From Prochlorococcus sp. AG-676-M04 (lineage in GTDB: Bacteria; Cyanobacteriota; Cyanobacteriia; PCC-6307; Cyanobiaceae): 57,152 bases of DNA. Positions 3,350 through 33,414 of this stretch are shown here, piece by piece. Below the pieces are notes generated by a model. It saw only the letters and a list, made by a program, of their open reading frames with translations. It ran no database searches and was not told the DNA's origin. Position numbers and translations under genes: made by a program. Numbering within the stretch: the first letter of the stretch is position 1; each line of letters starts with the position of its first letter. The stretch covers positions 1-57,152 of the forward strand of contig QCUB01000002.1 in assembly GCA_003210895.1 (NCBI GenBank), in the 5' to 3' direction.

Positions 3350-3400
3350 GTAGCGGGTGCTTTGGGAGCACTAGGTCGCAGGTTCGAATCCTGTCGCCCC
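3350..3400 (+). repeat. tRNA-Pro(TGG) 3'-half fragment, copy 1
   Basis: gtagcgggtgctttgggagcactaggtcgcaggttcgaatcctgtcgccccgatca; anticodon arm, T arm and acceptor 3' strand, no 5' half. Confidence 0.85.
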
Positions 3401-3452
3401 GATCAGTTATAGCAGTAAGTCTCAGCTAATAATATATTCCTTTTAAAAAGTC

Positions 3453-3475
3453 TTTCCCTCATATTTCCCTCAAAT
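3453..3475. repeat. Tandem arm-type repeat, CCCTCAAAT family (right of copy 1)
   Basis: tttccctcatatttccctcaaat. Confidence 0.6.
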
Positions 3476-3493
3476 CCTATTAAATGGCAGTAA

Positions 3494-4132
3494 TTAGTCA
3501 TAATTGTATATCTCATATTTTCTTGGGGCTGTGATTTCTAATTCTCTCAAATAATAGTCTCTATCTTTATCTATTTGTTCTCCAATAGCATCACCAAACT
3601 TTTCCCACTTTTCTTCACTTTCTTTTTTAGCCTTAAACTTTTCGCGTATGTATTGTTCATTACTCATACAAATACCTCTAAATGAAACTTCGCCAGTTCT
3701 TGTACAACGTGGGTCAGTGTATATAGATTGAGTTGTGACTCGCTTCATTTGTGTAAGAAACTGAGTAGCAACCTTTTTATTCCCAAAGAGAATAACTCCT
3801 TGCCCCTTTTCTCCAGAGTTTTTTAAGTAATCAATATAAAAAGTATCGCTACCTTTTTCACAGTTAAATATTTGCCCTGGAGCGCATGTTCTAACTTCCT
3901 CTCTATGAACGAAATTTGTAATCTGAGAATACTTAACGGAACTAGTCTTATCTATTATTATCGAATCTTTTTCAAAATCTACTTCACATTTATTACCTCT
4001 TTTGCCGCACCAGGCATCATAGTTTTTCTTCATATCAAAGCTGCTGTTAGGAGCTTCAGCTGCGCCAAAGTCTGCATAAGCTGTTGAATTTAAACTAATA
4101 AGAAATGGAATAAGTAAAAAAATACTTTTCAT
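3494..4132 (-). CDS. secreted hypothetical protein, cargo between tRNA-Pro fragments 1 and 2
   Basis: 212 aa with N-terminal signal peptide MKSIFLLIPFLISLNSTAYA and paired Cys. Confidence 0.75.
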   Translation of the reverse strand: MKSIFLLIPFLISLNSTAYADFGAAEAPNSSFDMKKNYDAWCGKRGNKCEVDFEKDSIIIDKTSSVKYSQITNFVHREEVRTCAPGQIFNCEKGSDTFYIDYLKNSGEKGQGVILFGNKKVATQFLTQMKRVTTQSIYTDPRCTRTGEVSFRGICMSNEQYIREKFKAKKESEEKWEKFGDAIGEQIDKDRDYYLRELEITAPRKYEIYNYD

Positions 4133-4218
4133 CTAATCCCCCTTAAAGCATGGACGCATTAAAAATAGATAATTAACTCAATTAATTTTAAACGAATTGT
4201 CAACGATTAATTTATTAA

Positions 4219-4241
4219 TTCCCTCAAATTTCCCTCAAATT
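4219..4241. repeat. Tandem arm-type repeat, CCCTCAAAT family (left of copy 2)
   Basis: ttccctcaaatttccctcaaatt; matches 3453-3475. Confidence 0.65.
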
Positions 4242-4328
4242 TATTGTTACAAGTCCCAACCAGTCCAGACTAAGTTCACAAAAACACCAGTTATATCCTT
4301 AGGTCTCAATTATAGCCATAATCTTGCG

Positions 4329-4379
4329 AGTGCTTTGGGAGCACTAGGTCGCAGGTTCGAATCCTGTCGTCCAGATCAG
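4329..4379 (+). repeat. tRNA-Pro(TGG) 3'-half fragment, copy 2
   Basis: agtgctttgggagcactaggtcgcaggttcgaatcctgtcgtccagatca. Confidence 0.85.
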
Positions 4380-4891: not shown

Positions 4892-4928
4892 GTGCCCAAA
4901 AAGTGCTCATAAATAATGCTGCTATAAT
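4892..4928 (+). promoter_or_regulatory. GTGCCC arm-type repeat plus TGCTATAAT -10-like element upstream of pilin gene
   Basis: gtgcccaaaaagtgctcataaataatgctgctataat; related sequences precede 10261, 11427, 12440 and 15511. Confidence 0.5.
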
Positions 4929-4949: not shown

Positions 4950-5822
4950 ATGTTTAATTCAAAAGAAAATGGATTCTCACTTGTTGAATTAATAGTTGTT
5001 TTAATAATTACTGCAATACTTGCTCAACTAGGTTTTACAGCATTTAATAGATACGTAAAAAGAGCAAAGGCCTTTGCCGCAATGACCGCTCTAAAAAATA
5101 TTCAAAGAGAATGCGAGAGTAATAGAGATTTAGAAGCTTCAGAAACATTTACCTTATTGCCTATAAAAGGTTATTCAATTTCGACAAGAGATACTAATAG
5201 TTGTTTAGGGCAATCATCTAACGGAAAGGTAGCAGCAATTGCTAACAACCAAAATGATATCCCTAATTATTTCTATGATTTTTTATTAGGACAAATAAGT
5301 TGTTCATTCACAGGAACTAATAATATTTTTGAGAGTTGCGGTAAAAATAATATTAATAATTCTAATGCTGTAATTAATTCTTGGGATAATCTTACATGTG
5401 AAAATAATAACCTTGTAGTGGCTAGATATACTATGAATAGAAATGGAACGAGTCCAACTCAAAATAATATGATGAGATTTGGGGGAAGATTCTCTCACAG
5501 TTATGAAATGCCAAATCAAAATCAAAAAACAGATGGATATTCACATCACCAAGATAACTGGATGATAGGAATCTTTGAACAAGAAAAATATAATAAAAAA
5601 TCAGAAGTTGACCAACCAGATAAAAAAATACTAAGAAATAAAGATGAATTAATTGATTACGTTTCTAAATGGTTTGAACCTCCAGTTAAACCATCCGACA
5701 ACGCTCCATTTTTTGTGCGAGAAATGTATGATAATGCCCCTAAAACTCCAGAAGATTATGTCAACCAAAATATGACCATTATGGAAAGAGATGCAGGAGG
5801 GGAGAAATTCTTTTGTGATTAA
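4950..5822 (+). CDS. type IV pilin-like protein (prepilin-type N-terminus)
   Basis: NGFSLVELIVVLIITAILAQLGFTAFNRYVKRAKAFAAMTALKNI. Confidence 0.88.
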   Translation: MFNSKENGFSLVELIVVLIITAILAQLGFTAFNRYVKRAKAFAAMTALKNIQRECESNRDLEASETFTLLPIKGYSISTRDTNSCLGQSSNGKVAAIANNQNDIPNYFYDFLLGQISCSFTGTNNIFESCGKNNINNSNAVINSWDNLTCENNNLVVARYTMNRNGTSPTQNNMMRFGGRFSHSYEMPNQNQKTDGYSHHQDNWMIGIFEQEKYNKKSEVDQPDKKILRNKDELIDYVSKWFEPPVKPSDNAPFFVREMYDNAPKTPEDYVNQNMTIMERDAGGEKFFCD

Positions 5823-5897
5823 TATCTTATTAAATTACAAATAAGAAGCTTATATAATTAAAAGAAAAGACAAACAAATTTTGCTGAAAGATTTTTG

Positions 5898-5948
5898 TGT
5901 ACTTTGGGAGCACTAGGTCGCAGATTCGAATCCTGTCGCCCCGATCAT
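5898..5948 (+). repeat. tRNA-Pro(TGG) 3'-half fragment, copy 3
   Basis: gtactttgggagcactaggtcgcagattcgaatcctgtcgccccgatca. Confidence 0.85.
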
Positions 5949-5981
5949 TTATAGCAATAAGTCTCAGCTAATAATAAATTA

Positions 5982-6016
5982 CACCCAAAATACCTTGCAC
6001 CCAAAATGCACCCAAA
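5982..6016. repeat. Arm-type repeat, GCACCCAAA family, three units (right of copy 3)
   Basis: cacccaaaataccttgcacccaaaatgcacccaaa. Confidence 0.65.
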
Positions 6017-6107
6017 TTCTTGAATTTATTGAGATTTCTAATGTTTAAATACAATAAGTAGTTTAAATAAATTTTTGAAGCTATAAAAGTAAAAAGTTAT
6101 TTTTAAT

Positions 6108-6893
6108 TTGAATCGATTTGTTCCCACATCTAATAAGGGATTTTCATTAATAGAATTAGTTGTCGTAGTTGCAGTTCTTGCAATTTTAGCCGCTATTGGT
6201 ATTCCTAGTTTCAACGCAATTATTAAACGAGCACTTTTAGCTATTACAAAAACATCATTAAACGACAACTATAAACAATGTAAAATAAATTCTGATGGAG
6301 AACTGAATTTATCCAATATTCCAGGAGTAGTTTTTCAATCAAATGATTGCGCTAGCGATATCACAGCAACAATTAATAGTGAATGTACTTTGAAAATGAA
6401 TATGTCTACTGGAGCAAAAACTGGTTGGACTGATTCTTATGAGCAATGTGTTTCTGCAACTAATAATTCTCCAGGTAATGGTAATGGGAATGGAAATGGA
6501 AATAGGAATGGGAATGGATCAATTAATGAAGCCTTAGCTAATTATTGCAATAATGATCCCAAACCTACATCATGCCAAACTACAGGATTAGGAGGTTATG
6601 CAGTAGTTCATGACGATGGTACTGTCGCTGGAATAACTGTCTTAACAAGTAATGACCCTTTTAATAATGGCGGAGTAATGCCAATTGAATTTATGGGTTG
6701 CCCAGCTGGGTGTAGATTAATCCGACAAACAAATCCCTCAGACACAGGCAATGTAGCAGGATGGTTTGGTCAAAATGTCAATTACACTAATGGAGTATTT
6801 ACTCTTGAAGATGGGACTCAAATTAAAGATGGTGTTGGAATAAGACCTAATGGTGAAATGTTTGATACGGGCACTAATGAAATAATTAATTAA
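6108..6893 (+). CDS. type IV pilin-like protein with Gly-Asn repeat linker (TTG start)
   Basis: KGFSLIELVVVVAVLAILAAIGIPSFNAIIKRA; PGNGNGNGNGNRNGNG linker. Confidence 0.85.
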   Translation: MNRFVPTSNKGFSLIELVVVVAVLAILAAIGIPSFNAIIKRALLAITKTSLNDNYKQCKINSDGELNLSNIPGVVFQSNDCASDITATINSECTLKMNMSTGAKTGWTDSYEQCVSATNNSPGNGNGNGNGNRNGNGSINEALANYCNNDPKPTSCQTTGLGGYAVVHDDGTVAGITVLTSNDPFNNGGVMPIEFMGCPAGCRLIRQTNPSDTGNVAGWFGQNVNYTNGVFTLEDGTQIKDGVGIRPNGEMFDTGTNEIIN

Positions 6894-6959
6894 TTTATCG
6901 TTTAATAATTTAATTAAATATTTTTTGCATTGCTAATAAATTATAAATTATAAAGAGTT

Positions 6960-6980
6960 GCACCCAAAATGCACCCAAAG
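6960..6980. repeat. Arm-type repeat, GCACCCAAA family (left of copy 4)
   Basis: gcacccaaaatgcacccaaag; matches 5982-6016. Confidence 0.65.
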
Positions 6981-7068
6981 TAAAAGATATTAGTCCGAAT
7001 TATTCCACACTTTTTTCTCTAAATGTACTGATATAGCTATAAGTCTCAATTATAACCTTGTTTTAGCG

Positions 7069-7115
7069 GTTGCTTTGGGAGCACTAGGTCGCAGGTTCGA
7101 ATCCTTTCGCCCCGA
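7069..7115 (+). repeat. tRNA-Pro(TGG) 3'-half fragment, copy 4
   Basis: ggttgctttgggagcactaggtcgcaggttcgaatcctttcgccccga. Confidence 0.85.
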
Positions 7116-7189
7116 CTCTAATAATCCATGTCATAGAAAGGTTTCCCAGACTGTCTTTTTTTTTGGTTACATTGTAGAATAATGAAACT

Positions 7190-7210
7190 GAGCGAGTTTT
7201 GAGCGAGATT
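7190..7210. repeat. Arm-type repeat, GAGCGAG family (right of copy 4)
   Basis: gagcgagttttgagcgagatt; same family as 3208-3230. Confidence 0.6.
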
Positions 7211-7314
7211 CTGCTATACCTTGCATAACCTTGCCGAATGGTATCGCTCAAAATGATTATGACATTCACAAAATAATCACAATAATTCCTAAGATTAATA
7301 AAACAATAATAATA

Positions 7315-7488
7315 ATGAAGTCTATTCTTTCAAGTAAAAGAACAAAAGCAATATTAGGAATTGGTTTAATAGCTGTTGGTATTGGTGCAATTTCAAAAAA
7401 GGTTATCAGCTATCCAACTGGGGGATGTATGAAAGGTACTCAAGAATTGACTCTAAATAAAGGGATAAAAAACAAGATCTTTATTTAA
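7315..7488 (+). CDS. small hydrophobic hypothetical protein
   Basis: MKSILSSKRTKAILGIGLIAVGIGAISKK..., internal Met of ORF 7231..7488. Confidence 0.45.
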   Translation: MKSILSSKRTKAILGIGLIAVGIGAISKKVISYPTGGCMKGTQELTLNKGIKNKIFI

Positions 7489-7504
7489 CGAGTAAGTATT
7501 TCAC

Positions 7505-7918
7505 TTATTCAATAATAATTGATCCGCCCATTCCAAAAGGTGCATGTGGAGAACAAACATAATAGTATTTGCCTTTAGATACGCCCTTTGTATTCCATGA
7601 TAATGTTCCATTTTGAGTCCCTGGAGTACCAGAAAGTATGCCTGTGGTTACCTGATCACCACCTCCACGAGAAAATTCAGTCTTTATATAGAAAGGATGA
7701 CGAGATGCGTCAATATCAAAGATAATTGTATCTCCTTTATTGATACTGACTGTAGGATCGTTTCCACTTACAGATCCGTTCCTATCAGTTCCACTCAAGA
7801 TATAGTCACGATAACCCTCTGCTGATACGTCTATTTTAAATGTTTCTGAATCTGCAAAAGCTGATCCTGAGAAACCTATAAGCAAAGGTAGTAAAAAAAT
7901 AGAACGCATAATTTTCAT
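7505..7918 (-). CDS. exported cupredoxin (plastocyanin-like type 1 Cu protein)
   Basis: Signal peptide; HPFYIK...YYYVCSPHAPFGMGGSIIIE gives H, C, H, M ligands. Confidence 0.82.
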   Translation of the reverse strand: MKIMRSIFLLPLLIGFSGSAFADSETFKIDVSAEGYRDYILSGTDRNGSVSGNDPTVSINKGDTIIFDIDASRHPFYIKTEFSRGGGDQVTTGILSGTPGTQNGTLSWNTKGVSKGKYYYVCSPHAPFGMGGSIIIE

Positions 7919-7948
7919 AATATGTGCATTTAAATAGTAAGAATAAAA

Positions 7949-7985
7949 GGAGCTAATTGCCCCTTATTTTAGATCGACAGTCAAT
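7949..7985 (-). promoter_or_regulatory. TCGATCTAAAATA leader with hairpin, upstream of the cupredoxin
   Basis: ggagctaattgccccttattttagatcgacagtcaatt (plus strand). Confidence 0.65.
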
Positions 7986-8327
7986 TATTTAAAATACCTC
8001 TTATAAGGTCTTCTAAAAAATTGGCAGTTTTAATGAAATTTGCTTTTATGAGTGTAGAGTTATTTTTATTATGCAAATCTCATTTTTTTGCAAAAGTAGT
8101 TTTGTTTTTAACTCTTTATTGTATTTCTGATTTATCAATTAAAAATAATATTTTGAGAAAAGTAATGAATAGAGCTAATAGAGCTAAAAAAATTTAAACT
8201 TCCCAATCAATGGGATTTTAACTAATTTTTGGAATAATCAACCCACTACAGTTATGGGAATAGGTGTAGCAATATTTGTATTATTAGGAATTTATATATC
8301 TTTACTCCAGACATATCAATAAATTAG

Positions 8328-8642
8328 TTAATTATTTTTTTTAATTTTTTCAAGATTCCATTTATCAAATATTAATTTCATTTCTCTTTCGTAGTATCTT
8401 ACTTTCTTTGCAAAAGGTAGTTGTTGAATAATTATCCCAAAGGGAAATTTAAAAAAAGAAGAGACATAAACAATATAAAACTCGACAAATGAAGGTTTTG
8501 GTGGGAGAGGTAAATTTTTTATATATGCCCAATCAATGCAAGGTTTTAGTTGCTTATCACTAGCGATAATATTTTTTTTACATCTCCGACAAGAAAATAG
8601 ATAAATGCAAATAAAAATCGGTAACGGAAGAAGTCTCAACAT
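8328..8642 (-). CDS. hypothetical protein
   Basis: 104-aa ORF. Confidence 0.5.
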   Translation of the reverse strand: MLRLLPLPIFICIYLFSCRRCKKNIIASDKQLKPCIDWAYIKNLPLPPKPSFVEFYIVYVSSFFKFPFGIIIQQLPFAKKVRYYEREMKLIFDKWNLEKIKKNN

Positions 8643-8728
8643 TTATTAAAAAGGTATTTCTTCAGTAGTTATTGCTTCAGGATAACCAAGCCTTAATTTA
8701 CTTGCGGCGCAATTAGTAAGCGTTTCAT

Positions 8729-9112
8729 TTATTCCCAAGTTTTCATATCAGTAGTTCCTTGTGATCTTTGCATCCAGGAATATTTCCATGTACCGTTTTC
8801 ATTTTTAAAAATGCAAGTATAAGTTGAAAGATCTTTATTTTGATTTCCTTTATAACTGAAGATTTCATTCAATGTGAAAACCGCGTATGCTATCTCACCG
8901 TAAATTTCAATTTTGTGGGTTTTGATTAGTTCTGAGGATTCTGCGACTAAGTCTTTACTATCAAACATTCCCACTAATCCCTGTGCAGAGATTGGATTTC
9001 CACTTGGCCTTACAGCCAAAAAATCTTCAGTAGCATTAGGTATTAGAAAAGAAGAATCTTCACTGGTTGCATAACCATTAATTAAATTTTCTATGGCTTG
9101 AGTACTTGACAT
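8729..9112 (-). CDS. SnoaL/NTF2-like protein
   Basis: 127 aa; paralog of 24208..24597 (shared RPSGNPI, YKG, W-x-x-x-W-x-QRS). Confidence 0.7.
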   Translation of the reverse strand: MSSTQAIENLINGYATSEDSSFLIPNATEDFLAVRPSGNPISAQGLVGMFDSKDLVAESSELIKTHKIEIYGEIAYAVFTLNEIFSYKGNQNKDLSTYTCIFKNENGTWKYSWMQRSQGTTDMKTWE

Positions 9113-9119
9113 TAAAAAA

Positions 9120-9157
9120 GGAGCTAATTGCCCCTTATTTTAGGTCGACTGTCAATC
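9120..9157 (-). promoter_or_regulatory. TCGATCTAAAATA-type leader with hairpin
   Basis: ggagctaattgccccttattttaggtcgactgtcaatc (plus strand), 8 bp from the start codon of 8729..9112. Confidence 0.65.
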
Positions 9158-9190
9158 GTATTTAATATAGCGGTGCAAGTAGTAAGCGTC

Positions 9191-9277
9191 TCATTTTCTT
9201 CTGTTTTTTATATTTAAAAATAAGTTTGTGTAATTCGCAATAACTAATAACAGCAAAAGAAACGTATTAATGGACAT
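9191..9277 (-). CDS. 28-aa membrane microprotein MSINTFLLLLLVIANYTNLFLNIKNRRK
   Basis: Short ORF directly downstream of a copy of the repeated leader. Confidence 0.45.
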   Translation of the reverse strand: MSINTFLLLLLVIANYTNLFLNIKNRRK

Positions 9278-9283
9278 AGAAAA

Positions 9284-9322
9284 TAGGGTAGTTATACCCT
9301 TTAATGTAGATCGATTGTCAAT
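9284..9322 (-). promoter_or_regulatory. leader element copy with AGGGTA/TACCCT hairpin
   Basis: agggtagttataccctttaatgtagatcgattgtcaatc (plus strand). Confidence 0.6.
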
Positions 9323-9326
9323 CGAA

Positions 9327-9581
9327 TTATTTTGTTTTAAGTTCAGGTTCGTACACAGCACCATTGCAAACTGCTACTGCAATACTTGCTTTTGATGCTT
9401 TATCCCAACTTTTTAGTTTCATCTCATATTTATCAATCCATTGAAAAGTTTTTTTAAAGCATTGATTCCAATAAAATGCCTTTTTTGAAATAGGTATCAA
9501 GGAAATAAAAATGAGTACTATTGCAGTTGTAGATGTAATTACACAGTATTTGATGACTTTTGGGCCTTTATTAGGAGACAT
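9327..9581 (-). CDS. small membrane hypothetical protein
   Basis: 84-aa ORF with one TM segment, preceded by the repeated leader. Confidence 0.6.
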   Translation of the reverse strand: MSPNKGPKVIKYCVITSTTAIVLIFISLIPISKKAFYWNQCFKKTFQWIDKYEMKLKSWDKASKASIAVAVCNGAVYEPELKTK

Positions 9582-9589
9582 AAAAATAG

Positions 9590-9628
9590 AAGGTTTTATT
9601 CCTCTCAGTTTAGATCGACTGTCAATAT
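9590..9628 (-). promoter_or_regulatory. leader element copy
   Basis: agaaggttttattcctctcagtttagatcgactgtcaat (plus strand). Confidence 0.55.
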
Positions 9629-9640
9629 AAATACCCTAAA

Positions 9641-9994
9641 TCAGAATCCTGAGATTGCTTCATAAAAATCAGCATCTTCGAGTACTGCCTTTAATGGTTC
9701 GATTTCCTCTGCAGGACCATGTACCTGTACGTTAATATCAGCTACTTCAAAAAGCTTGGGAATCATATGTCCCATATTCTTTAGATGAAATAAAGCGGCA
9801 GAACCATCTTTATATGCCTCCCTTACAAAAGCTTTATCAGATCCGCATGTGGTGATATTGAAGAAAAGGCAGTCAGGCTCTTTAGATTTTGTCATAACTA
9901 GAATTTCCTCCAGAAGTTCTAAGCACTGATCCATCTTTCCATCCTTGACAGTGAAATGAGGATGAATGGATACCATCTTTGTATCGAGAGACAT
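9641..9994 (-). CDS. antibiotic biosynthesis monooxygenase (ABM)-like protein
   Basis: VSIHPHFTVKDGKMDQCLELLEEIL...REAYKDGSAALFHLKN. Confidence 0.65.
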   Translation of the reverse strand: MSLDTKMVSIHPHFTVKDGKMDQCLELLEEILVMTKSKEPDCLFFNITTCGSDKAFVREAYKDGSAALFHLKNMGHMIPKLFEVADINVQVHGPAEEIEPLKAVLEDADFYEAISGF

Positions 9995-10074
9995 AGATTA
10001 ATAGATATTAATAATTTCTTTCTAGCAATTAATTTTTATGAACAAGTTAAAAATATTGATTCATAAATAAAAGA

Positions 10075-10112
10075 GGAGCTAGTTGCCCCTTAGTTTAGAT
10101 CTACTTTCATAA
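10075..10112 (-). promoter_or_regulatory. leader element copy
   Basis: ggagctagttgccccttagtttagatctactttcat (plus strand). Confidence 0.55.
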
Positions 10113-10260
10113 AAAATTATCAGATCTCCGACCTATTTAACACAAGGGCCAAAAAAGTGCCCATAAATAATGTTGCTATAATTTTTTAAAAATGACAAGT
10201 TTTTAATAATTGCTCCTAGTTCTAATTCGAAAAAATAGATAATTTTTCTATAATATTTTT

Positions 10261-10518
10261 ATGAAAAAAATAGAGAAATTTATATTAATAAATAAAGACA
10301 GATCAAGAATTAAAGTCTTTGAACCATTCGAAGATGTTTCCAAACCTTCCTCATCTATTGATGCAATGATGATTTCTTATGGTTGCGTTTATAAGAGATC
10401 AAGTAAACCAGTAATGAAAGGTAGCAGAGTAGAGACATTAGAAAATGCACGAAAAGAATATAAACAGCTACTAGAGGAAGGTTGGAAGAAGACCAGTATT
10501 TTTAGAAGTTATTTTTAA
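10261..10518 (+). CDS. DUF1651-like protein
   Basis: ARKEYKQLLEEGWKKTS C-terminus shared with 16655..16918. Confidence 0.65.
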   Translation: MKKIEKFILINKDRSRIKVFEPFEDVSKPSSSIDAMMISYGCVYKRSSKPVMKGSRVETLENARKEYKQLLEEGWKKTSIFRSYF

Positions 10519-10742
10519 GGATAAAAGTCCACTTTCCAACGCATTACGCAATAGCTTAGAGGATTATATCCATTGCAATTGCAGAACTTGAATATTTTTA
10601 AAGCGAAATGGTGGAAACTAGCATCATTAAAAAATGCCCAGCTAAAATAAATAGCAAATGCAGTTACAACAAACGCAGCATATTGAAGCCAATGAGTTCC
10701 AGACTTGTCTACACCATTTTTGTCAAAATTAGAATTACTCAT
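10515..10742 (-). CDS. small membrane protein (paralog of 23330..23527)
   Basis: MSNSNFDKNGVDKSGTHWLQYAAFVVTAFAIYFSWAFF. Confidence 0.6.
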   Translation of the reverse strand: MSNSNFDKNGVDKSGTHWLQYAAFVVTAFAIYFSWAFFNDASFHHFALKIFKFCNCNGYNPLSYCVMRWKVDFYP

Positions 10743-10997
10743 TTAAAGGATTGGATATGCTATCCATCCAAATAAGCTATAGTTAATAATGACAGCCATG
10801 AAGCCTATCATTGCCAGCCTTCCATTTGTTCTTTCAGCAATAAACCAATAGCTATTTGGCCATTCAAATTTAGTCGTATTAGATATTTGATTTTCTGAAA
10901 GTTGATTCTCTTCAGGAGTATTGTCCTGATTAAGATAATAATTACTATCTGGGTAATAGCTTTCGCTTCGAATATTGTCTGATTGCTTTTCAATCAT
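10743..10997 (-). CDS. hli: High-light-inducible protein with N-terminal extension
   Basis: AERTNGRLAMIGFMAVIINYSLFGWIAYPIL. Confidence 0.9.
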   Translation of the reverse strand: MIEKQSDNIRSESYYPDSNYYLNQDNTPEENQLSENQISNTTKFEWPNSYWFIAERTNGRLAMIGFMAVIINYSLFGWIAYPIL

Positions 10998-11109
10998 TTT
11001 ATTAGAAATTTGAATTATATATATCTTAAAAACTAAAAAGGTTAAATAGGTTAAAAAGGTATTTCATCAATCATTAATTAGATAATTATTTTTGATTGCT
11101 GTCAAATAG

Positions 11110-11148
11110 CCATCATATCTATGATGGTTCTTCCTGACAAATCAGGAA
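11110..11148. other. Two tandem perfect hairpins
   Basis: CCATCAT-ATCT-ATGATGG then TTCCTGA-CAAA-TCAGGAA, just left of an arm-type repeat. Confidence 0.75.
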
Positions 11149-11155
11149 ATACTTT

Positions 11156-11171
11156 GCACCTAAAATGCAAC
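11156..11171. repeat. Arm-type repeat, GCACCCAAA family, diverged (left of copy 5)
   Basis: gcacctaaaatgcaac. Confidence 0.5.
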
Positions 11172-11253
11172 ATATTAGTCCGAATTAGTCCATATATAAA
11201 TCTAAGGAAATCCTAATTGCAACATAAGTCTCACTTATAGCCTTTTTTTAGAG

Positions 11254-11303
11254 GGTTCTTTGGGAGCACTTGGTAGCAGGTTCGAATCCTGTCACTTCGA
11301 TCA
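11254..11303 (+). repeat. tRNA-Pro(TGG) 3'-half fragment, copy 5
   Basis: ggttctttgggagcacttggtagcaggttcgaatcctgtcacttcgatca. Confidence 0.8.
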
Positions 11304-11352
11304 GTTATAGCAGTAAGTCACAGCTAATATATAATTTACCCTTAAAAGAAGA

Positions 11353-11370
11353 GTGCCCGAAAAGTGACCA
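11353..11370. repeat. Arm-type repeat, GTGCCC family (right of copy 5)
   Basis: gtgcccgaaaagtgacca. Confidence 0.5.
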
Positions 11371-11426
11371 AAAGATTAATCAAAAAATGATTTGCTATAT
11401 AATGTATTAATGATTAAAAAAAATAA

Positions 11427-12377
11427 ATGAGACAAAATGAAAAAGGATTTTCACTGATTGAGCTTATTGTCGTTTTAATAATTACTGCAATTTTATCTCA
11501 GTTGGGATTTGTGTCATTTAATAGATACACCCGAAAAACCAAAGCATTTGCTGCTAAAACTGCCTTAAAAAATATTCAAAAAGAATGCGAGGCAAATATT
11601 GCTTTGAATGCCTCAGATAAATTCACACCTCTACCTATTGATGGCTATTCCTTAGATTCTGGAATGAATAATAATTGTGATGGGAATTCTGATGGATTTA
11701 TTGTGGCCAATCCTCTTAAAAATGACTATTTACCGGTTTGGAGATTAAACCCTAAGCAAGGAACGATTACCTGCTCTTATGAAAGTACAGAAAACAGCTT
11801 TTTTATTGAATGTAAGAGAGAAGGAAAGATTGAGAAGTTTAAAAATCAAATCAGTAAAGCTTTTGATGAAGGGAAACTATTGGAAAATAAATTTTATGAA
11901 AGAGGTAATAGTAGGTATGTAATTGTCGAGGGAGACACTTGGGAAGCTGCTCAAGCCAATGCTCTTTCCTTAGGAGGGAATTTAGCAACAATAAACGATA
12001 AAGAAGAAAATGATTTTTTGAAAACTGAATTATATGGTTCAGATAAAGTAAGTGATAAATTAGAAGAAAAATTTAGGATCTCGGGTGAACCATTAAGAGG
12101 TACAAGTATTTGGCTTGGTCATATAGATAAAAATTCAAAGGGGACATATAGCAGTGTTACTGGAGAAGAAACCTATTCAAATTGGGGTCCTGGAGAATAT
12201 TCTGATGGTATTGGTAAACAAGAAAAATACACGATACTTACATTATTTGATAATTACAATAGGGATCCAGGAATGGTTGGAACAGTAGCTAATAGACAAT
12301 ATAATACTCAAGCTTTAAGAGACAGGGGTGGTGCTCATATTTTTTATGGGTTAGCAGAGATAAAGATTGATGAATGA
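11427..12377 (+). CDS. type IV pilin-like protein fused to a C-type-lectin-like domain
   Basis: KGFSLIELIVVLIITAIL N-term; C-term YVIVEGDTWEAAQANALSLGGNLATINDKEENDFL...IWLGHID...YSNWGPGEYSDG. Confidence 0.82.
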   Translation: MRQNEKGFSLIELIVVLIITAILSQLGFVSFNRYTRKTKAFAAKTALKNIQKECEANIALNASDKFTPLPIDGYSLDSGMNNNCDGNSDGFIVANPLKNDYLPVWRLNPKQGTITCSYESTENSFFIECKREGKIEKFKNQISKAFDEGKLLENKFYERGNSRYVIVEGDTWEAAQANALSLGGNLATINDKEENDFLKTELYGSDKVSDKLEEKFRISGEPLRGTSIWLGHIDKNSKGTYSSVTGEETYSNWGPGEYSDGIGKQEKYTILTLFDNYNRDPGMVGTVANRQYNTQALRDRGGAHIFYGLAEIKIDE

Positions 12378-12439
12378 AATATTGCAAAAATTAGTGCACA
12401 AAATTATCACTGCTATATTTATTAAAAATAAATTTAGTA

Positions 12440-13396
12440 GTGTCAAATTCAAAAGAAAGTGGATTTACTCTTATTGAATTAATTATTGTTTTAATAATTA
12501 GTGCGATTCTTGCCCAGATTGGATATGTTACATGGAACTTACAAATAAGAAAAAGCAGAGCATTTGCGGCAAAGACAGCTATCAAAAATATTAAGAAGGA
12601 ATGTGAGTCAAATAGAGATTTAGGCTTAGATTCAATTTTTACTTTGTTAGAGCCTAAAGGTTATGAAATCAACTCAAGGAATACAAATAGTTGCTTAGGA
12701 GAAATAGCAAGTAGCTTAATTTCTGCCGTGCCAAATATTAGTAATGAATATCCAAGTTATTTTTATGATTTCAAATCAGGAGATATTTCTTGTGATTACA
12801 AAAACTCAAAGGATAACCTTTTCAAGGAATGTATCAATTTGCCTCCTAATACATCAATTGCTTTTAGTCCAGACAGAGGCCTCTCTTGTAGAGAGGTGAA
12901 GGTTGGCTCAACTCATTTTGGTTACAGTCAAATTTTCACTGCAGGTTATTCATCTGGGAGTCAATTGAAGTTCTTAAAGACTACTTTTAAAATTGGCAAA
13001 AAAAAAATAGTAGTTGATGGCTTAGGAGTTCAATCTTTTAGAACAAAACAAAGAGGGCGCTGGGTTGTTTCTCGTGATGGAATTAAGAATTGGGTAGCTT
13101 TTACAACAAAGAAAATCAATCAGTCAAAAGGTGGCTATAGTGCTGAGATTGATCCTGAAGATCCTTTTGGAATAAAGTTCTACCTTCCAAATGGAGAAGA
13201 AGCTAACAATATTGAAATGCTTGTTCATCAGAAACCTAGGGGAGAGTGGGATACTTATGTAAGTCCAGTTTTGGGTGATTTGAATAACAATCCTAAAACT
13301 AGAGGTTGGGAAAATTATGATCCCTCAAGGGGTGTATTCGTCTTAAATCCTAAAAAGGATACAACTACGGTTTGTGATGGGCGTGATTCTTTATAA
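12440..13396 (+). CDS. type IV pilin-like protein with a distinct C-terminal module (GTG start)
   Basis: SGFTLIELIIVLIISAILAQIGYVTWNLQIRKSRAFAAKTAIKNIKKECES. Confidence 0.85.
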   Translation: MSNSKESGFTLIELIIVLIISAILAQIGYVTWNLQIRKSRAFAAKTAIKNIKKECESNRDLGLDSIFTLLEPKGYEINSRNTNSCLGEIASSLISAVPNISNEYPSYFYDFKSGDISCDYKNSKDNLFKECINLPPNTSIAFSPDRGLSCREVKVGSTHFGYSQIFTAGYSSGSQLKFLKTTFKIGKKKIVVDGLGVQSFRTKQRGRWVVSRDGIKNWVAFTTKKINQSKGGYSAEIDPEDPFGIKFYLPNGEEANNIEMLVHQKPRGEWDTYVSPVLGDLNNNPKTRGWENYDPSRGVFVLNPKKDTTTVCDGRDSL

Positions 13397-13597
13397 AATT
13401 CAAATTAAGTGTCAATGACAGGTGGCCATAACCGAAAATATATTGGTATAGTATAAGCAAAGTTTTACCTGAAACACTAAATACTGGCAAGGTTTTTCTA
13501 TAAAAATAAATTCTAGAAAATTACAGCTAATAAGAGAATCAAATATGGATGAACCTCTACTATGACAATACTTAATTAAATATTAGTAATGTTCGTT

Positions 13598-13669
13598 GCC
13601 GATATAGCTCAGCGGTAGAGCAACTGTCTCGTAAACAGTAGGTCATCGGTTCAATTCCGATTATCGGCA
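13598..13669 (+). tRNA. tRNA-Thr(CGT)
   Basis: Full cloverleaf: GCCGATA/TATCGGC acceptor, ACTGT-CTCGTAA-ACAGT anticodon arm, GGTTCAATTCC T arm. Confidence 0.93.
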
Positions 13670-13693
13670 TTTAAATTTAAGTATTAGCGCTTA

Positions 13694-13900
13694 TTGAAAC
13701 TAATAAATAGTCTATTTAGACTTCTAAAAATTATAAATTGTGGGGAATTTATGAGTGGAGATTATGAGACATTAGAAATCAATCAACCTAAGATTTCTTA
13801 TTTAAAAAAAAGATCTGAAGTAAATACTTTATGGCCAGATGAAATGATTAATAAGATTGAAGAAATGAAAAATAACATTAACGAAGCTGCTTATAAATAA
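13694..13900 (+). CDS. small hypothetical protein (true start may be 13751)
   Basis: 68-aa ORF; internal Met at MSGDYETLEINQPK. Confidence 0.45.
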   Translation: MKLINSLFRLLKIINCGEFMSGDYETLEINQPKISYLKKRSEVNTLWPDEMINKIEEMKNNINEAAYK

Positions 13901-13907
13901 ATTTTAA

Positions 13908-13950
13908 AATTGACAGTCGATCTAAAATAATGAGCAATCAGATCCTTTTT
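13908..13950 (+). promoter_or_regulatory. leader element copy, no downstream same-strand gene
   Basis: attgacagtcgatctaaaataatgagcaatcagatccttttttt. Confidence 0.5.
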
Positions 13951-13951
13951 T

Positions 13952-14329
13952 TTAATAGCAAAGAACGCTATCCGCTTTAATTGATTCTTCAACTAGCACA
14001 TCTGGCATAGCAAACTCTGCTTTATATCCATCTAGAAGCTTCTTATCGTAACCCCTCGATTTAGCAGACTTTCCTGAGACGTATATGGTAACTTTTGAAT
14101 TTTTTAAATTTTCAAGATGTTCGTATAAGTCTCCAGTGCCTTGACCAACTATTTCTCCGGCTTTTTTGCAATTTAATATGTCAACTCCATCTCCTGCAAG
14201 AAAAAGAGTTACTTTATGATCGTTTTTTTCTGCAGCAAGGGCAACCAATAAACCTAAAGTTATTTTATTTTGAGATTCTAAACCGCTATAAATATGCACT
14301 AGCACTGTATTGTCGGTAATGATAGACAT
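13952..14329 (-). CDS. DsrE-like family protein
   Basis: VHIYSGLESQNKITLGLLVALAAEKNDHKVTLFLAGDGVDILN. Confidence 0.65.
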   Translation of the reverse strand: MSIITDNTVLVHIYSGLESQNKITLGLLVALAAEKNDHKVTLFLAGDGVDILNCKKAGEIVGQGTGDLYEHLENLKNSKVTIYVSGKSAKSRGYDKKLLDGYKAEFAMPDVLVEESIKADSVLCY

Positions 14330-14651
14330 TTAAGTCTCCCTATAATTTAATTCTCTAATCTTAAAAAAATCTATCTTTATTAGCTGTATTTTTTATGAAA
14401 CCCTTACTACTTGCACCGATTGAATAATGAGTTGAGAATTAAGATGGGCTGGTTGGAATAGAGGTAAAAAGAGAATTTACGGGGAAGATGGTAATTACTT
14501 TTATGATGACCCAAGTAAATATCCTCCTAAAGAACCATAATATACAGAAGAGGAAAAAAGACAAATTAAAGAACTAGAGGAGGAAAGAAAAAAATCTCAA
14601 GCAAAAATAGATAATTCTGAATTAAAATCTATCTTTACCAATAGACTTATA

Positions 14652-15083
14652 CTAATTATCTTCATTCAAATCAGAATATTCAATTTCATTAGATTCTTGT
14701 TTTGTATCTTGATTAAAAGAATTAAAATTAGTTTTATCAATAGCTATTAGTAATCCTCCTATTAATGATAAATTTCTTGCAATTGCCATAAATTGAAGAG
14801 GCACTAAATGAAAAATAATCGTTGTAGGGACTAAGAAAATGAGGAGTAGAGAACAGGCAAGTTTAGTTTTATTTGAAAAAATTAAAAGAATTGAACCACT
14901 AATTAAGAGTCCTGTTGCTGCAATTAACAAAAGATTAGAAAGTGGCTCTGGAAATCCTCTGCTTGTTATATATTGTGCTTGACTTCCAAAGTTAGTAATC
15001 TTGCTCGGTATGGCATTTACAAAAATCGCACTTAGAAGTAATTTGGCAAGAAAATTTAAAGAACAAAATCTTTTAAAGTTCAT
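14652..15083 (-). CDS. DoxX-like membrane protein
   Basis: Four hydrophobic segments; KITNFGSQAQYITSRGFPEPLSNLLL. Confidence 0.6.
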   Translation of the reverse strand: MNFKRFCSLNFLAKLLLSAIFVNAIPSKITNFGSQAQYITSRGFPEPLSNLLLIAATGLLISGSILLIFSNKTKLACSLLLIFLVPTTIIFHLVPLQFMAIARNLSLIGGLLIAIDKTNFNSFNQDTKQESNEIEYSDLNEDN

Positions 15084-15342
15084 AAAAACGTATCGGTTAT
15101 TACATAAATAGCTTAATTAGCACTTTTTTACAAGTCGTCTTTTTTACTTAGATAATGAATAAATATGTAAAACTTAAATAAGTGATTTAGGGCACTTGTA
15201 CTTTACCTAGCGATTAATTGTATGCCTGCGGACAACTTTGTATAAATCTGGCAAATTTTTGAGATTGGGAATTCCTTAGAAATTGAAATTAATAAGTGTT
15301 AGCCTTTGTGGTAATTTGTTGTAGTGTCTTAAAATAGAGGTC

Positions 15343-15393
15343 GGTTGCTTTAGTATTCCTAAGTCTCAGGTTATAATCCTGTAACCCAATCAG
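15343..15393 (+). repeat. degenerate tRNA-Pro 3' fragment, copy 6
   Basis: ggttgctttagtattcctaagtctcaggttataatcctgtaacccaatca followed by the shared gttatagcagtaagtctaagct flank. Confidence 0.6.
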
Positions 15394-15426
15394 TTATAGC
15401 AGTAAGTCTAAGCTATTAATAAATTA

Positions 15427-15462
15427 CATCCAAAGAAACCTTGACCCCAAAATGGACCCAAA
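15427..15462. repeat. Arm-type repeat, GCACCCAAA family, diverged (right of copy 6)
   Basis: catccaaagaaaccttgaccccaaaatggacccaaa aligns with 5982-6016. Confidence 0.55.
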
Positions 15463-15510
15463 AAATAACACGAAAATTTCACTGCTATAGTTATTAAAAT
15501 AAATTTAGTC

Positions 15511-16482
15511 ATGTCAAATTCAAAAGAAAATGGATTTTCCCTTATTGAATTAATAGTTGTTTTAATAATTACTGCCATTCTTTGTCAGTTGGGATTTATT
15601 GGTTATAACCGTTATGTCAGAAAATCGAAAGCATTTGCAGCCAGAGCAGCTATCAGAAATATCAAAGCTGAATGTATTTCAAATTCAGATTTAGGTTTAA
15701 ACAAAGATTTTACATTATTTGATTTAAATTCATATTCAATAAACACCCGAGAAAATAATAGCTGTTTTGGAGAGATTCAAAATGGCTTAATAATAGCTCT
15801 TCCTAATAATCCTGACTATTTACCTTCTTATAGTTATAACTTTGAATCTGGTGACATAAATTGCTCTTATAACGGTTTCATAGAAGGTTTATTTAGTGAA
15901 TGTGTTTCTCTAAAAGCAAAATTTGAGAAATATAATTTTGTAGTTAAAGATTCATATAAAGAAAGAGGATGCTCCGCATACGTTATTGTAAAAGGCCCTA
16001 GTTGGGAAGATGCAGAAAATAATTCTAAAAAACTAGGTGGGCATTTAATTACGATCAACGATAAAGATGAAAACAAATGGGTAGTCAATTCTTATCAGAA
16101 TTTAGTAACTTATAACAACGCGACTGGGGATATAAAGGGTTCTGCTGATACTCTTCCAAGAGCTTGGATTGGACTTAATGATAGAGATAAAGAGGGGGAA
16201 TATGTATGGAGTTCGGGCCAAGAAGTATCTTATAGAGGGACAATTGATTCCGGTCATTTTAGCGGCATGAAGAAAACCTACGGAAGATTTGATCCTAAAA
16301 CAGGCCTAAGAGATGATTCTTTACCTTTAGTAAATGAATTTATTGATCAAGATGTTTCTTCAATAACCTTAGCAAACCCATCTAATAACAGTTTTTGGGT
16401 AGAAGGTTCATGGGAAGATAATTGGAATAACTACACTCATTACAGTGATGGTATTGCTGAAATTCCCACATGTATGGATTAA
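15511..16482 (+). CDS. type IV pilin-like protein fused to a C-type-lectin-like domain
   Basis: NGFSLIELIVVLIITAIL N-term; C-term YVIVKGPSWEDAENNSKKLGGHLITINDKDENKWV...AWIGLNDRDKEGEYVWSSG. Confidence 0.87.
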   Translation: MSNSKENGFSLIELIVVLIITAILCQLGFIGYNRYVRKSKAFAARAAIRNIKAECISNSDLGLNKDFTLFDLNSYSINTRENNSCFGEIQNGLIIALPNNPDYLPSYSYNFESGDINCSYNGFIEGLFSECVSLKAKFEKYNFVVKDSYKERGCSAYVIVKGPSWEDAENNSKKLGGHLITINDKDENKWVVNSYQNLVTYNNATGDIKGSADTLPRAWIGLNDRDKEGEYVWSSGQEVSYRGTIDSGHFSGMKKTYGRFDPKTGLRDDSLPLVNEFIDQDVSSITLANPSNNSFWVEGSWEDNWNNYTHYSDGIAEIPTCMD

Positions 16483-16487
16483 AAATT

Positions 16488-16534
16488 TGCTTTGGGAGCA
16501 CTTGCTAGCAGGATCGAATCCTATTGGCCCTACC
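16488..16534 (+). repeat. tRNA-Pro 3' fragment, copy 7
   Basis: tgctttgggagcacttgctagcaggatcgaatcctattggccctacca. Confidence 0.75.
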
Positions 16535-16554
16535 ATTTAAATCCAGTTGATATA

Positions 16555-16579
16555 GAGAGTTTCCAAGACTCTCTTTTTT
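16555..16579 (+). terminator. Rho-independent terminator just after tRNA-Pro fragment 7
   Basis: GAGAGT-TTCCAAG-ACTCTC-TTTTTT. Confidence 0.8.
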
Positions 16580-16654
16580 GTTGTCTGTTTGTCTCATAAC
16601 CCAAAAGGGATCTCTAGGGGGCATCTACAATCTTTGAATATCCCACCTAGGTGC

Positions 16655-16918
16655 TCACCATTTTGGTTCAGTTACTTGCCATCCCTCGGTAATTAATTGT
16701 TGATATTCTTTGCGCGCAGCTTCTATTTTAATCTCTTTTCTAGTTTTCATAAGCGGTGGATTCTCGCCTAATGAACCTACAACAATTCCACTATCAACAA
16801 ACATATACTCAAAAAATTTATCCTTATTATTTTTATTCTTTGTAAATCGTCTCACCTCAGTCCAGTTAGGACATATTAACCATGCCTCCTCAGTTACCCT
16901 TCTACAGTCTTTATCCAT
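16655..16918 (-). CDS. DUF1651-like protein
   Basis: EEAWLICPNWTEVRRF...AARKEYQQLITEGWQVTEPKW. Confidence 0.75.
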   Translation of the reverse strand: MDKDCRRVTEEAWLICPNWTEVRRFTKNKNNKDKFFEYMFVDSGIVVGSLGENPPLMKTRKEIKIEAARKEYQQLITEGWQVTEPKW

Positions 16919-17373
16919 AAATTTCCTCTAAGATTAATAGTTCTTTTATTAAGATATGATTTTCTTCCTTTTGCTTCAAAGCATGGATATTTTTAAAAGC
17001 TAAGTTAGTTTTCAAAATTCTAAAATTAATTTCCGATTCCATCTCTAATAAGCAACATGCAAACCATTGCTCGAATAATAAAAATTAAGCTCCACCCTTA
17101 CGATTTAATCTTCAACTAACTTGGTAGTTGACTAGTTGGTGGTGCATGGAATTTCCTCTTCTTTCTAGTAAGTCTTTTATAAGCAACAAAAGTACATAAT
17201 ACAAGCAGAGGAATAAATATAGAGTTAATCATTTTTAAAACCGTTTCTCTACACATAAAAACAAACTTAAACTAAATATCAATACCCAAAAATGTATTTT
17301 TCGTAGAAAGAACCTAGTAAGCTTTTAATAAATACAATAACTTTTTCTTTTTAACAAAAAAAAGGATTTTTGA

Positions 17374-18096
17374 TTAGTCAAATGTTTTTGAAGAGTTTTC
17401 TAGTAGTCCATTTAATTCTAAGAGTTCTTCTTTGGTAAATTCACGATATTTTCCCGTTGGTACGTCTAACTTAATATTCATAATTCTTACGCGCTTAAGT
17501 GATTGTACTCTGTAGCCTAAGGAATCGCACATTCTCCTAATCTGACGGTTAAGTCCTTGAGTAAGTATGATTTTGAATTTATTTGGCCCCAATTGTTTTA
17601 CAAAACAATTTTTGGTTATGCTGTCTAATATTTCAACTCCATTACTCATTCTTTGAATAAAGTCTCTATTAATTGCACGATTAACTCTTACGATATATTC
17701 TTTTTCATGATTATTTCTTGCTCTAAGTATTTTATTTACAATATTTCCATCGTTTGTCAAAAAAATTAATCCCTCACTGGGCTTATCCAATCTTCCAATA
17801 GGAAAAATCCTTGTAGGATATTTAATGAAATCTATTATATTGTCAGGTTCTACTCCTCTATCAGTTGTGCAAACGACTCCAACAGGTTTATTAAAAGCTA
17901 AGTATATGTTTTTTTGTTTCGTTGATTTTTCTATTCTTTGACCTTCAACTTTTACTTTATCACCCTTCTCTACCTTAGTACCTATCTCTGGAATTTTACC
18001 ATTAATGGTTACTTTTCCTTCTTCAATTAGTCTATCTGCTACTCTTCTAGAGCAGTAACCTACTTCACTTAAATATTTATTTATCCTGGTAGCCAT
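17374..18096 (-). CDS. RsuA/RluB/RluF-family pseudouridine synthase
   Basis: S4 domain start (RINKYLSEVGYCSRRVADRLIEEGKVTING) and GRLDKPSEGLIFLTNDG catalytic motif. Confidence 0.93.
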   Translation of the reverse strand: MATRINKYLSEVGYCSRRVADRLIEEGKVTINGKIPEIGTKVEKGDKVKVEGQRIEKSTKQKNIYLAFNKPVGVVCTTDRGVEPDNIIDFIKYPTRIFPIGRLDKPSEGLIFLTNDGNIVNKILRARNNHEKEYIVRVNRAINRDFIQRMSNGVEILDSITKNCFVKQLGPNKFKIILTQGLNRQIRRMCDSLGYRVQSLKRVRIMNIKLDVPTGKYREFTKEELLELNGLLENSSKTFD

Positions 18097-18222
18097 TTTG
18101 TCAAAGTTACCTTTTAATTATTTTAAATCTAATTGGCCATAAAAAAGAAAGTTTTATCTATCTATGTTAGATCAACTGTTAATCAAATTAATAATATATA
18201 TACATCTTTATTTGAGAAACTT

Positions 18223-18270
18223 ATTCTTTGGGAGTACTAGATCGCAGGTTCTAATCCTATAGCACCGATC
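18223..18270 (+). repeat. tRNA-Pro 3' fragment, copy 8
   Basis: attctttgggagtactagatcgcaggttctaatcctatagcaccgatca. Confidence 0.7.
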
Positions 18271-20954: not shown

Positions 20955-21001
20955 TTGCTTTGGGAGCACTAAGTCGCGGGTTCGAATTCCTTAGCCACGG
21001 A
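20955..21001 (+). repeat. tRNA-Pro(TGG) 3'-half fragment, copy 9
   Basis: cttgctttgggagcactaagtcgcgggttcgaattccttagccacgga. Confidence 0.75.
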
Positions 21002-33072: not shown

Positions 33073-33414
33073 CTAATTAATTTCTGCAATTTTAGACTCT
33101 AATTCATTGATTTCTGCCTGCAATGCAGAAGTATCTTCTCCAGCAGCTGCTGCTTTAGACAATTGTCTTTTCTTGAAATTCAATTTAGTGTTTAATTTTT
33201 TGGCTTTTAAGGCTCCAGGTTTACTACCGCCTCCGCCGCCTCCGCCGCCTCCGCCGCCGCCGCCGCCGCCGCAGGCTAGAAGATTTTTATCATTTATTTG
33301 ATACTCTAAGCTATTAGAAAAATTATTTGCTAGAGATTCATTTCCAAAAAATAAAGCAATAGGAAGTGCAAAAATAACTCCTAAAGTTAATTTGAAAAAA
33401 AAGTTTAATTTCAT
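33073..33414 (-). CDS. exported protein with 15-residue polyglycine tract
   Basis: Signal peptide; LLACGGGGGGGGGGGGGGGSKPG; C-terminal coiled coil. Confidence 0.7.
   Translation of the reverse strand: MKLNFFFKLTLGVIFALPIALFFGNESLANNFSNSLEYQINDKNLLACGGGGGGGGGGGGGGGSKPGALKAKKLNTKLNFKKRQLSKAAAAGEDTSALQAEINELESKIAEIN

Follow-up and report, generated by a model that had tools for sequence, protein, structure and literature searches.

Modular pilins with exchangeable C-terminal heads as probable cargo of tRNA-Pro-targeted cassettes in Prochlorococcus

Results

Five pilin-like genes lie among partial copies of a tRNA-Pro(TGG) gene in a 57,152-nucleotide stretch of DNA from Prochlorococcus sp. AG-676-M04 (contig QCUB01000002.1, hereafter the window). 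The explanation that we favor, and judge to be likely, is that a chromosomal type IV pilus receives modular pilins, with binding heads that can be exchanged, from non-autonomous cassettes targeted to tRNA-Pro. The window is the entire contig C2 of the host genome (G000; 70 contigs, 1.27 Mb, 72% complete); it has low GC content and a match to the cyanobacterial small RNA Yfr19, both in keeping with a Prochlorococcus-like host. For comparison we used 266 species genomes of the genus, with a relative, G086, serving for closer comparison, and two genomes of a sister genus (G391 and G431) were also examined.

The preliminary description of this DNA had proposed five prepilin-type genes, and all five open reading frames were recovered on the + strand, at 4950..5822 (290 aa), 6108..6893 (261 aa), 11427..12377 (316 aa), 12440..13396 (318 aa), and 15511..16482 (323 aa); we refer to each by its start position. 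Every one encodes a Pfam N_methyl prepilin motif above the curated cut-off (E values of 1.8e-6 to 1.1e-7), in which the cleavage site G-F is followed by E at +5, as in a class III signal. Also as proposed, four of the genes (4950, 11427, 12440, and 15511) have a common N-terminus: their first 130 aa are 47-57% identical between genes, and their DNA is 67-71% identical across 216 nt. Gene 6108 (N_methyl 1.1e-7) belongs to a different pilin lineage, and the family model covers just ca. 60 of its N-terminal residues.

The C-terminal parts were said to diverge entirely. Separate alignment of the two ends upheld the conserved N-module; the C-parts of 4950 and 12440 match nothing recognized, but complete divergence does not hold for 11427 and 15511, whose C-parts are 31% identical to each other and both match Pfam Lectin_C above cut-off (2.2e-5 at ca. 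11934-12197 and 8.4e-7 at ca. 16000-16233, respectively). The 15511 C-part also has weak PDB matches to C-type lectins, the best at 7e-4. In 4950 the pilin module (aa 1 to ca. 130) precedes a C-module of ca. 160 aa, and in 12440 the C-module is ca. 185 aa long; no recognized domain was found in either by Pfam search, and a PDB sequence search returned no relatives for the 4950 C-module and chance-level matches alone for that of 12440. By sequence, then, 11427 and 15511 appear to be modular pilins with a recognized extra domain, a C-type-lectin-like head, and the additional ca. 160-185 aa of 4950 and 12440 are unrecognized. Relatives exist in other species: the 4950 C-module has 90% DNA identity with a partial copy in G086 (contig C20), where a tRNA-Pro fragment follows as well, and full-length relatives of 15511 occur in the G086 array (N-module 88%, C-module 95%) and in G259 (69% and 79%).

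Structures, which the preliminary description had suggested predicting, were modeled for 15511 and 12440 from four-row alignments of window sequences. The 12440 model has a helix at residues 11-61 followed by four strands, with residues 10-120 at a predicted local distance difference test score (pLDDT) of ca. 52-81, and the best PDB match of its N-module is full-length PAK pilin (E 6e-3, probability 1.00). The predicted N-module of 12440 therefore has the long N-terminal helix and antiparallel sheet of a pilin fold. The 15511 model has the same topology at low confidence; the C-modules, at pLDDT 20-43, were left uninterpreted, and the 12440 N-module is the sole part of the models that we used. 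Upstream of 4950, by 30 nt, lies an extended -10-like box, TGCTATAAT (4920..4928, +), and similar boxes lie 28-34 nt upstream of 11427, 12440, and 15511, although the motif by itself is not rare in the window.

The window contains nine 3' fragments of tRNA-Pro(TGG), spread across 3.3-21 kb and without exception on the + strand; five matches to a 37-nt fragment with no more than three mismatches compare with a chance expectation of 0.00. The leftmost (3353..3402) corresponds to tRNA positions 25-74 at 100% identity. Fragments at 4326..4375 and 5899..5944 form the left junctions of the 4950 and 6108 cassettes, and 7057..7116 forms the right junction of the latter. The left junction of the stretch holding 11427 and 12440 is at 11253..11300 (87.5%), a degraded fragment followed by the conserved junction tail ATCAGTTATAGCAGTAAGTC is at 15342..15387 (74%), and the right junction of the 15511 cassette is at 16488..16533 (83%). 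Two old fragments lie beyond, at 18226..18268 (86%) and 20956..20999 (84%), the latter the rightmost found in the window. The reported placement of the pilins just to the right of such fragments is thus correct for 4950, 6108, 11427, and 15511; 12440 has no fragment immediately upstream and comes after 11427.

The intact gene is on another contig of the host genome. Contig C22 carries tRNA-Pro(TGG) followed by three further 3' fragments and a modular pilin, the head of which gives a sub-threshold F5/8C match; the contig terminates within the array, of which C2 is probably the continuation. Arrays of this type are present in 11 of 12 well-assembled genomes. In 16 of 18 arrays, the farther a fragment lies from the intact tRNA, the lower its identity (mean Spearman rho -0.49; 0 of 2000 permutations as extreme, with distances in the window taken from its left end), which fits successive insertion at the tRNA. 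In both sister-genus genomes, Lectin_C-headed modular pilins adjoin the intact tRNA-Pro on its 5' side, between a partial copy and the tRNA. Copies of the 5' half of tRNA-Pro (positions 1-42), the kind of fragment that bounds these sister-genus pilins, were seen near the intact gene at L014 6128-6169, G111:C11:45826, G003:C3:3324, and G001:C1:1080836.

When left and right ends were compared for 63 cassettes from nine array stretches in eight genomes, 41% of same-cassette pairs had a direct repeat of 12 nt or more in common, vs. 2.7% of ends from different cassettes. On the left, these repeats lie mostly ca. 50-85 nt in from the cassette end, and on the right, 70-125 nt ahead of the fragment; their sequences differ from cassette to cassette (e.g., TTCCGTCAAAATTCCGTCAAA and TTGCACCCAAAATGCACCCAAA). 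The 6108 cassette has TTGCACCCAAAATGCACCCAAA at 5995..6016 and the identical 22 nt at 6958..6979, and the cassette at 3403-4302 has ATTTCCCTCAAAT at 3463..3475 and 4228..4240, all on the + strand. We take the pairs to be putative arm-type sites for a recombinase, and the matched terminal repeats suggest that this recombinase is supplied in trans, so that the cassettes would be mobilized by an enzyme encoded elsewhere. A plausible source exists in G086, where the insertion closest to tRNA-Pro is a tycheposon-like element of ca. 8.4 kb (L175 200-8610; G086:C6 ca. 47.2-55.6 kb). Its recombinase is of the XerD type (191 aa), and it further encodes a 450-aa protein that matches an integrase weakly and, at 824 aa, a Prim-Pol/PriCT_2/AAA_25 protein. 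Across all arrays examined, a cassette tends to have a tandem arm-type repeat of its own at the two ends, unlike that of its neighbors, as if many recombinase specificities shared one tRNA core.

A profile of the N-module matches 32 of the 266 species genomes. For 16 of these, 38 of 66 pilin matches lie within 2 kb of one of the tRNA-Pro fragments listed, where 1.25 would be expected from the area covered, an overrepresentation of ca. 30-fold. Since these genomes were picked for holding pilins and are related, and two weak window fragments were added to the fragment list, the nominal p of 3e-42 is not to be taken literally, and the effect size is the result. Together with the matched terminal repeats, this enrichment supports the earlier suggestion that the pilins are cassette cargo. 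Searches of viral contigs with the C-modules and of a phage collection with the 15511 protein gave no matches, and those collections thus offer no indication that phages carry them; in a wider search of contigs, the N-module matched only distant pilins of a generic kind from other phyla.

Presence of the family follows that of the pilus ATPases. T2SSE ATPases were found in 46 of the 266 genomes, and family pilins occur in 28 of these 46 vs. 4 of the 220 without; put the other way, T2SSE is present in 28/32 pilin genomes and 18/234 others (Fisher p 1e-21). The four pilin genomes lacking T2SSE are incomplete assemblies, and no N_methyl match was found in seven complete or near-complete genomes that have an array and no T2SSE match. 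The absence of pilins from arrays of genomes without pilus ATPases suggests that island content is filtered by the host machinery able to use it.

As the preliminary description had anticipated, none of the machinery families searched for is encoded in the window, and the machinery is found elsewhere in the host genome. Contig C12 encodes PilD, next to which are three further modular pilins, two of them with Lectin_C or F5/8C heads, and it also carries the terminal part of a secretin gene and a number of pilin-like genes, among them one with a VWA domain; contig C61 encodes PilB-like and PilT-like ATPases, and the genome-wide search gave one further, sub-threshold match on C1. Judged from these matches, a PilD peptidase and an assembly ATPase accompany the pilins in the same genome, as would be expected of type IV pilins. 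In G086, this cluster and the ATPases adjoin each other on contig C16, where the first complete modular pilin of the cluster comes after a decayed tRNA-Pro junction; the pil cluster itself may have taken up a cassette. In G148, an array cassette between two tRNA-Pro fragments (L172 8527-11033; G148:C1 ca. 37.5-40.0 kb) encodes, besides a protein of 207 aa, a complete PilB-like ATPase (544 aa, T2SSE 1.7e-105). Two neighboring cassettes carry pilins, and a second such ATPase is encoded elsewhere in that genome (G148:C2).

Evidence for head exchange comes from discordant identities of the two modules. The N-modules of the 4950 and C22 pilins share 82% identity and their C-modules 20%, with a sharp fall near residue 125, and the 60 nt upstream of their starts are 97% identical. 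Each of the two heads has a relative in G086 with 90-91% DNA identity, these being the partial pilins on C20 and C16 identified by DNA comparison. N-module identity is 83-91% between the 4950 and C22 pilin genes and overlaps the 87-88% between relatives; the head swap thus predates the split of the two species, and the N-modules behave almost as a common pool. The opposite pattern is seen in lectin pilins of the pil cluster, where the C12 protein and its G086 C16 counterpart are 52% identical in the N-module and 81% in the C-module. The proposed exchange of C-terminal modules finds support in both comparisons.

Recognized heads among 35 pilins are Lectin_C (9), Excalibur (5), SNase (staphylococcal nuclease; 3), F5/8C (3), and FG-GAP (1). 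The FG-GAP beta-propeller belongs to a 517-aa cassette pilin of G086 (L067 1004-2557; G086:C20), which comes after the relative of 4950, the place held by 6108 in the window. Pilins of 284 aa at L071, L075, L077, and L183 have C-terminal staphylococcal-nuclease domains and, at some loci, Excalibur calcium-binding motifs, so nuclease-headed pili are possible. On the opposite strand, in a cassette of C22, a 131-aa pilin-like protein without the cleavage-site G (L014 11267-11662) matches the family model at 3e-16.

The suggested gain and loss of cassettes is supported between genomes. Across related species the pilin cassette content of the locus differs, although several pilins keep the same heads. 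The retention of these cassette pilins by the nearest relatives gives no support to an array for rapid phase or antigenic variation within a strain. Since diversity-generating retroelements often target C-type lectin folds, we considered such an element and rejected it, as whole-module replacements do not fit; no search for a reverse transcriptase was made.

Discussion

In the mechanism that we envisage, the 3' end of tRNA-Pro(TGG) would be the target of small non-autonomous cassettes, and every new arrival would restore the tRNA and push older cassettes outward behind a tRNA fragment of ca. 46 nt. A tyrosine recombinase acting in trans would move them, for example one encoded by a tycheposon-like element that occupies this tRNA in a relative. 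The prepilin genes would be transcribed from promoter-like boxes of their own; the conserved module of ca. 130 aa would then be processed by PilD and polymerized by the chromosomal pilus machine. Since the N-modules of different genes are almost equivalent, recombination inside this module could join an older assembly module to a new head, and gain or loss of cassettes would alter the set of heads. By analogy with Streptococcus sanguinis PilB and PilC (PMC8179133, PMC9934059), the modular pilins are probably minor components and their heads probably displayed at the filament tip. Ligand binding by the heads, and adhesion, are what the domain matches would predict.

The separate ingredients of this mechanism are known already. 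More than 1,200 modular type IV pilins in 264 architectures, lectins included, have been reported (PMC8179133, PMC9934059). Like S. sanguinis PilB (vWA) and PilC (lectin), the proteins described here combine a small N-terminal pilin module with a C-terminal functional domain and are predicted to display binding heads at the tip; whereas the S. sanguinis proteins belong to the pil locus, several heads on one conserved N-module are here found per genome, in tRNA-anchored cassettes away from that locus. Type IV pili and their apparatus occur in about one quarter of picocyanobacterial single-cell genomes, and the major pilin PilA1 has a conserved first ca. 50 aa and a variable C-terminus (PMC7994388); in contrast, the modular pilins are 260-330 aa long, likely minor, and encoded as putatively mobile cargo. 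Tycheposons of Prochlorococcus, as described at second hand (PMC10872708), are 4-200 kb in size and integrate at specific tRNA genes with a tyrosine recombinase and cargo. The cassettes resemble them in tRNA integration and partial tRNA copies, and a tycheposon-like element sits at the same tRNA-Pro in G086, but they differ in size, mostly ca. 1 kb, and in having just one or two genes, none of them for a recombinase. Alteromonas (PMC4119200) and Methylophilaceae (fGI-2; PMC10872708) are known to have additive flexible genomic islands at tRNA genes. As in those islands, cassettes pile up next to a conserved tRNA whose end is repeated among them, and are gained and lost between genomes; paired cassette-specific arm repeats, decay with distance, and pilin enrichment in pilus-bearing genomes set the present arrays apart. 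We found no description of mobile modular-pilin cassettes in literature judged by title and abstract and exclusive of the original tycheposon paper, so prior mention is possible; the combination, rather than any of its parts, was not found described.

Several results weigh against the mechanism proposed here. Incongruence tests were marginal, with the N-module data rejecting the lectin pair at an approximately unbiased test p value (p-AU) of 0.04 and the F5/8C trio at 0.07, values that are suggestive, not strong, indications of discordance between N- and C-modules. The nearest species have several of these pilins in common, heads included, so change proceeds slowly, on a species-level timescale. 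The Lectin_C matches in 11427 and 15511 are partial (profile positions 3-72 and 4-65 of 107), and the C-terminal models are of very low confidence. The three pilins beside PilD in the host genome lie outside the array, and thus not every member of the family is cassette cargo. Finally, no Pfam tyrosine recombinase (Phage_integrase) match was found in the host genome, itself 72% complete, so present-day mobility is unproven.

An ordinary paralogous expansion of minor pilins in an accessory island, with fast-evolving C-termini and the tRNA-Pro fragments as marks of a general hotspot open to any gene, is an account that we consider unlikely. It fits the many unrelated single genes that the arrays contain, the conservation of the three PilD-adjacent pilins between the host and G086, and the similarity drop between 12440 and its G086 relative, which is partly gradual. 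Yet the fall near residue 125 is sharp, with distinct folds attached (lectin, F5/8C, FG-GAP, SNase); a fast C-terminus would not predict N-modules less conserved than heads, as in the pil-cluster lectin pilins; and the pilins are strongly concentrated near fragments. A chromosomal integron, with the pilins as its cassettes, is suggested by mostly single-gene cassettes, sites in one orientation, and polarity, but we rejected this reading as very improbable: the repeated site is the 3' fragment of tRNA-Pro, with an intact tRNA at one end, the cassettes have their own promoter-like boxes, specific arm repeats, and genes on both strands, and no integrase match was found in the 72%-complete G000.

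Other proposals accept modular pilins and differ over what the heads do. We doubt that, instead of mediating adhesion to surfaces or cells, they acquire DNA or nutrients in the manner of competence-like or nuclease pili. Other bacteria use minor pilins as DNA receptors, cyanobacteria require them for transformation (PMC12288463), and staphylococcal-nuclease and Excalibur domains do occur on pilins of other genomes; the recognized heads in the window, C22, and C12, however, are C-type-lectin-like or F5/8C-like. Both folds are mostly known for glycan or protein binding. Variation directed mainly against pilus-targeting phages or grazers, through decoys or receptor escape with ligand specificity secondary, seems improbable to us. 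Island-borne variable surface genes are often tied to predation, and the type IV pilus of marine picocyanobacteria influences grazing (PMC7994388), but the heads retain recognizable binding folds and related heads are 90-91% identical in DNA.

The exchange of heads on a chromosomal pilus by tRNA-Pro-targeted cassettes remains our preferred explanation. It joins modular pilins and tRNA-anchored cassettes in one mechanism, and indicates how an open-ocean phototroph could alter surface binding. Tentatively, and with some doubt, the array may be extended to an integron-like plug-in library, in which independently mobile single-gene units with their own arm specificity, interchangeable heads (lectin, discoidin-like, beta-propeller, nuclease), and even an assembly ATPase, as in G148, would build pilus function from mobile parts in natural populations. 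The heads with recognizable binding folds and the exact cassette ends supply candidates that make the ligands of Prochlorococcus pili experimentally approachable.

Other Features of the Window

Between the tRNA-Pro fragments, at 7505-18100, the non-pilin genes encode a plastocyanin-like protein, DUF3804, ABM, an HLI-like protein, DsrE, DoxX, and DUF1651; several of the non-pilin array genes in this interval share a terminator-like inverted repeat with TAGATCGACTGTCAAT. Outside the array, at 33073-33414 on the reverse strand, a small secreted-looking protein of 113 aa has a central run of 15 glycines.

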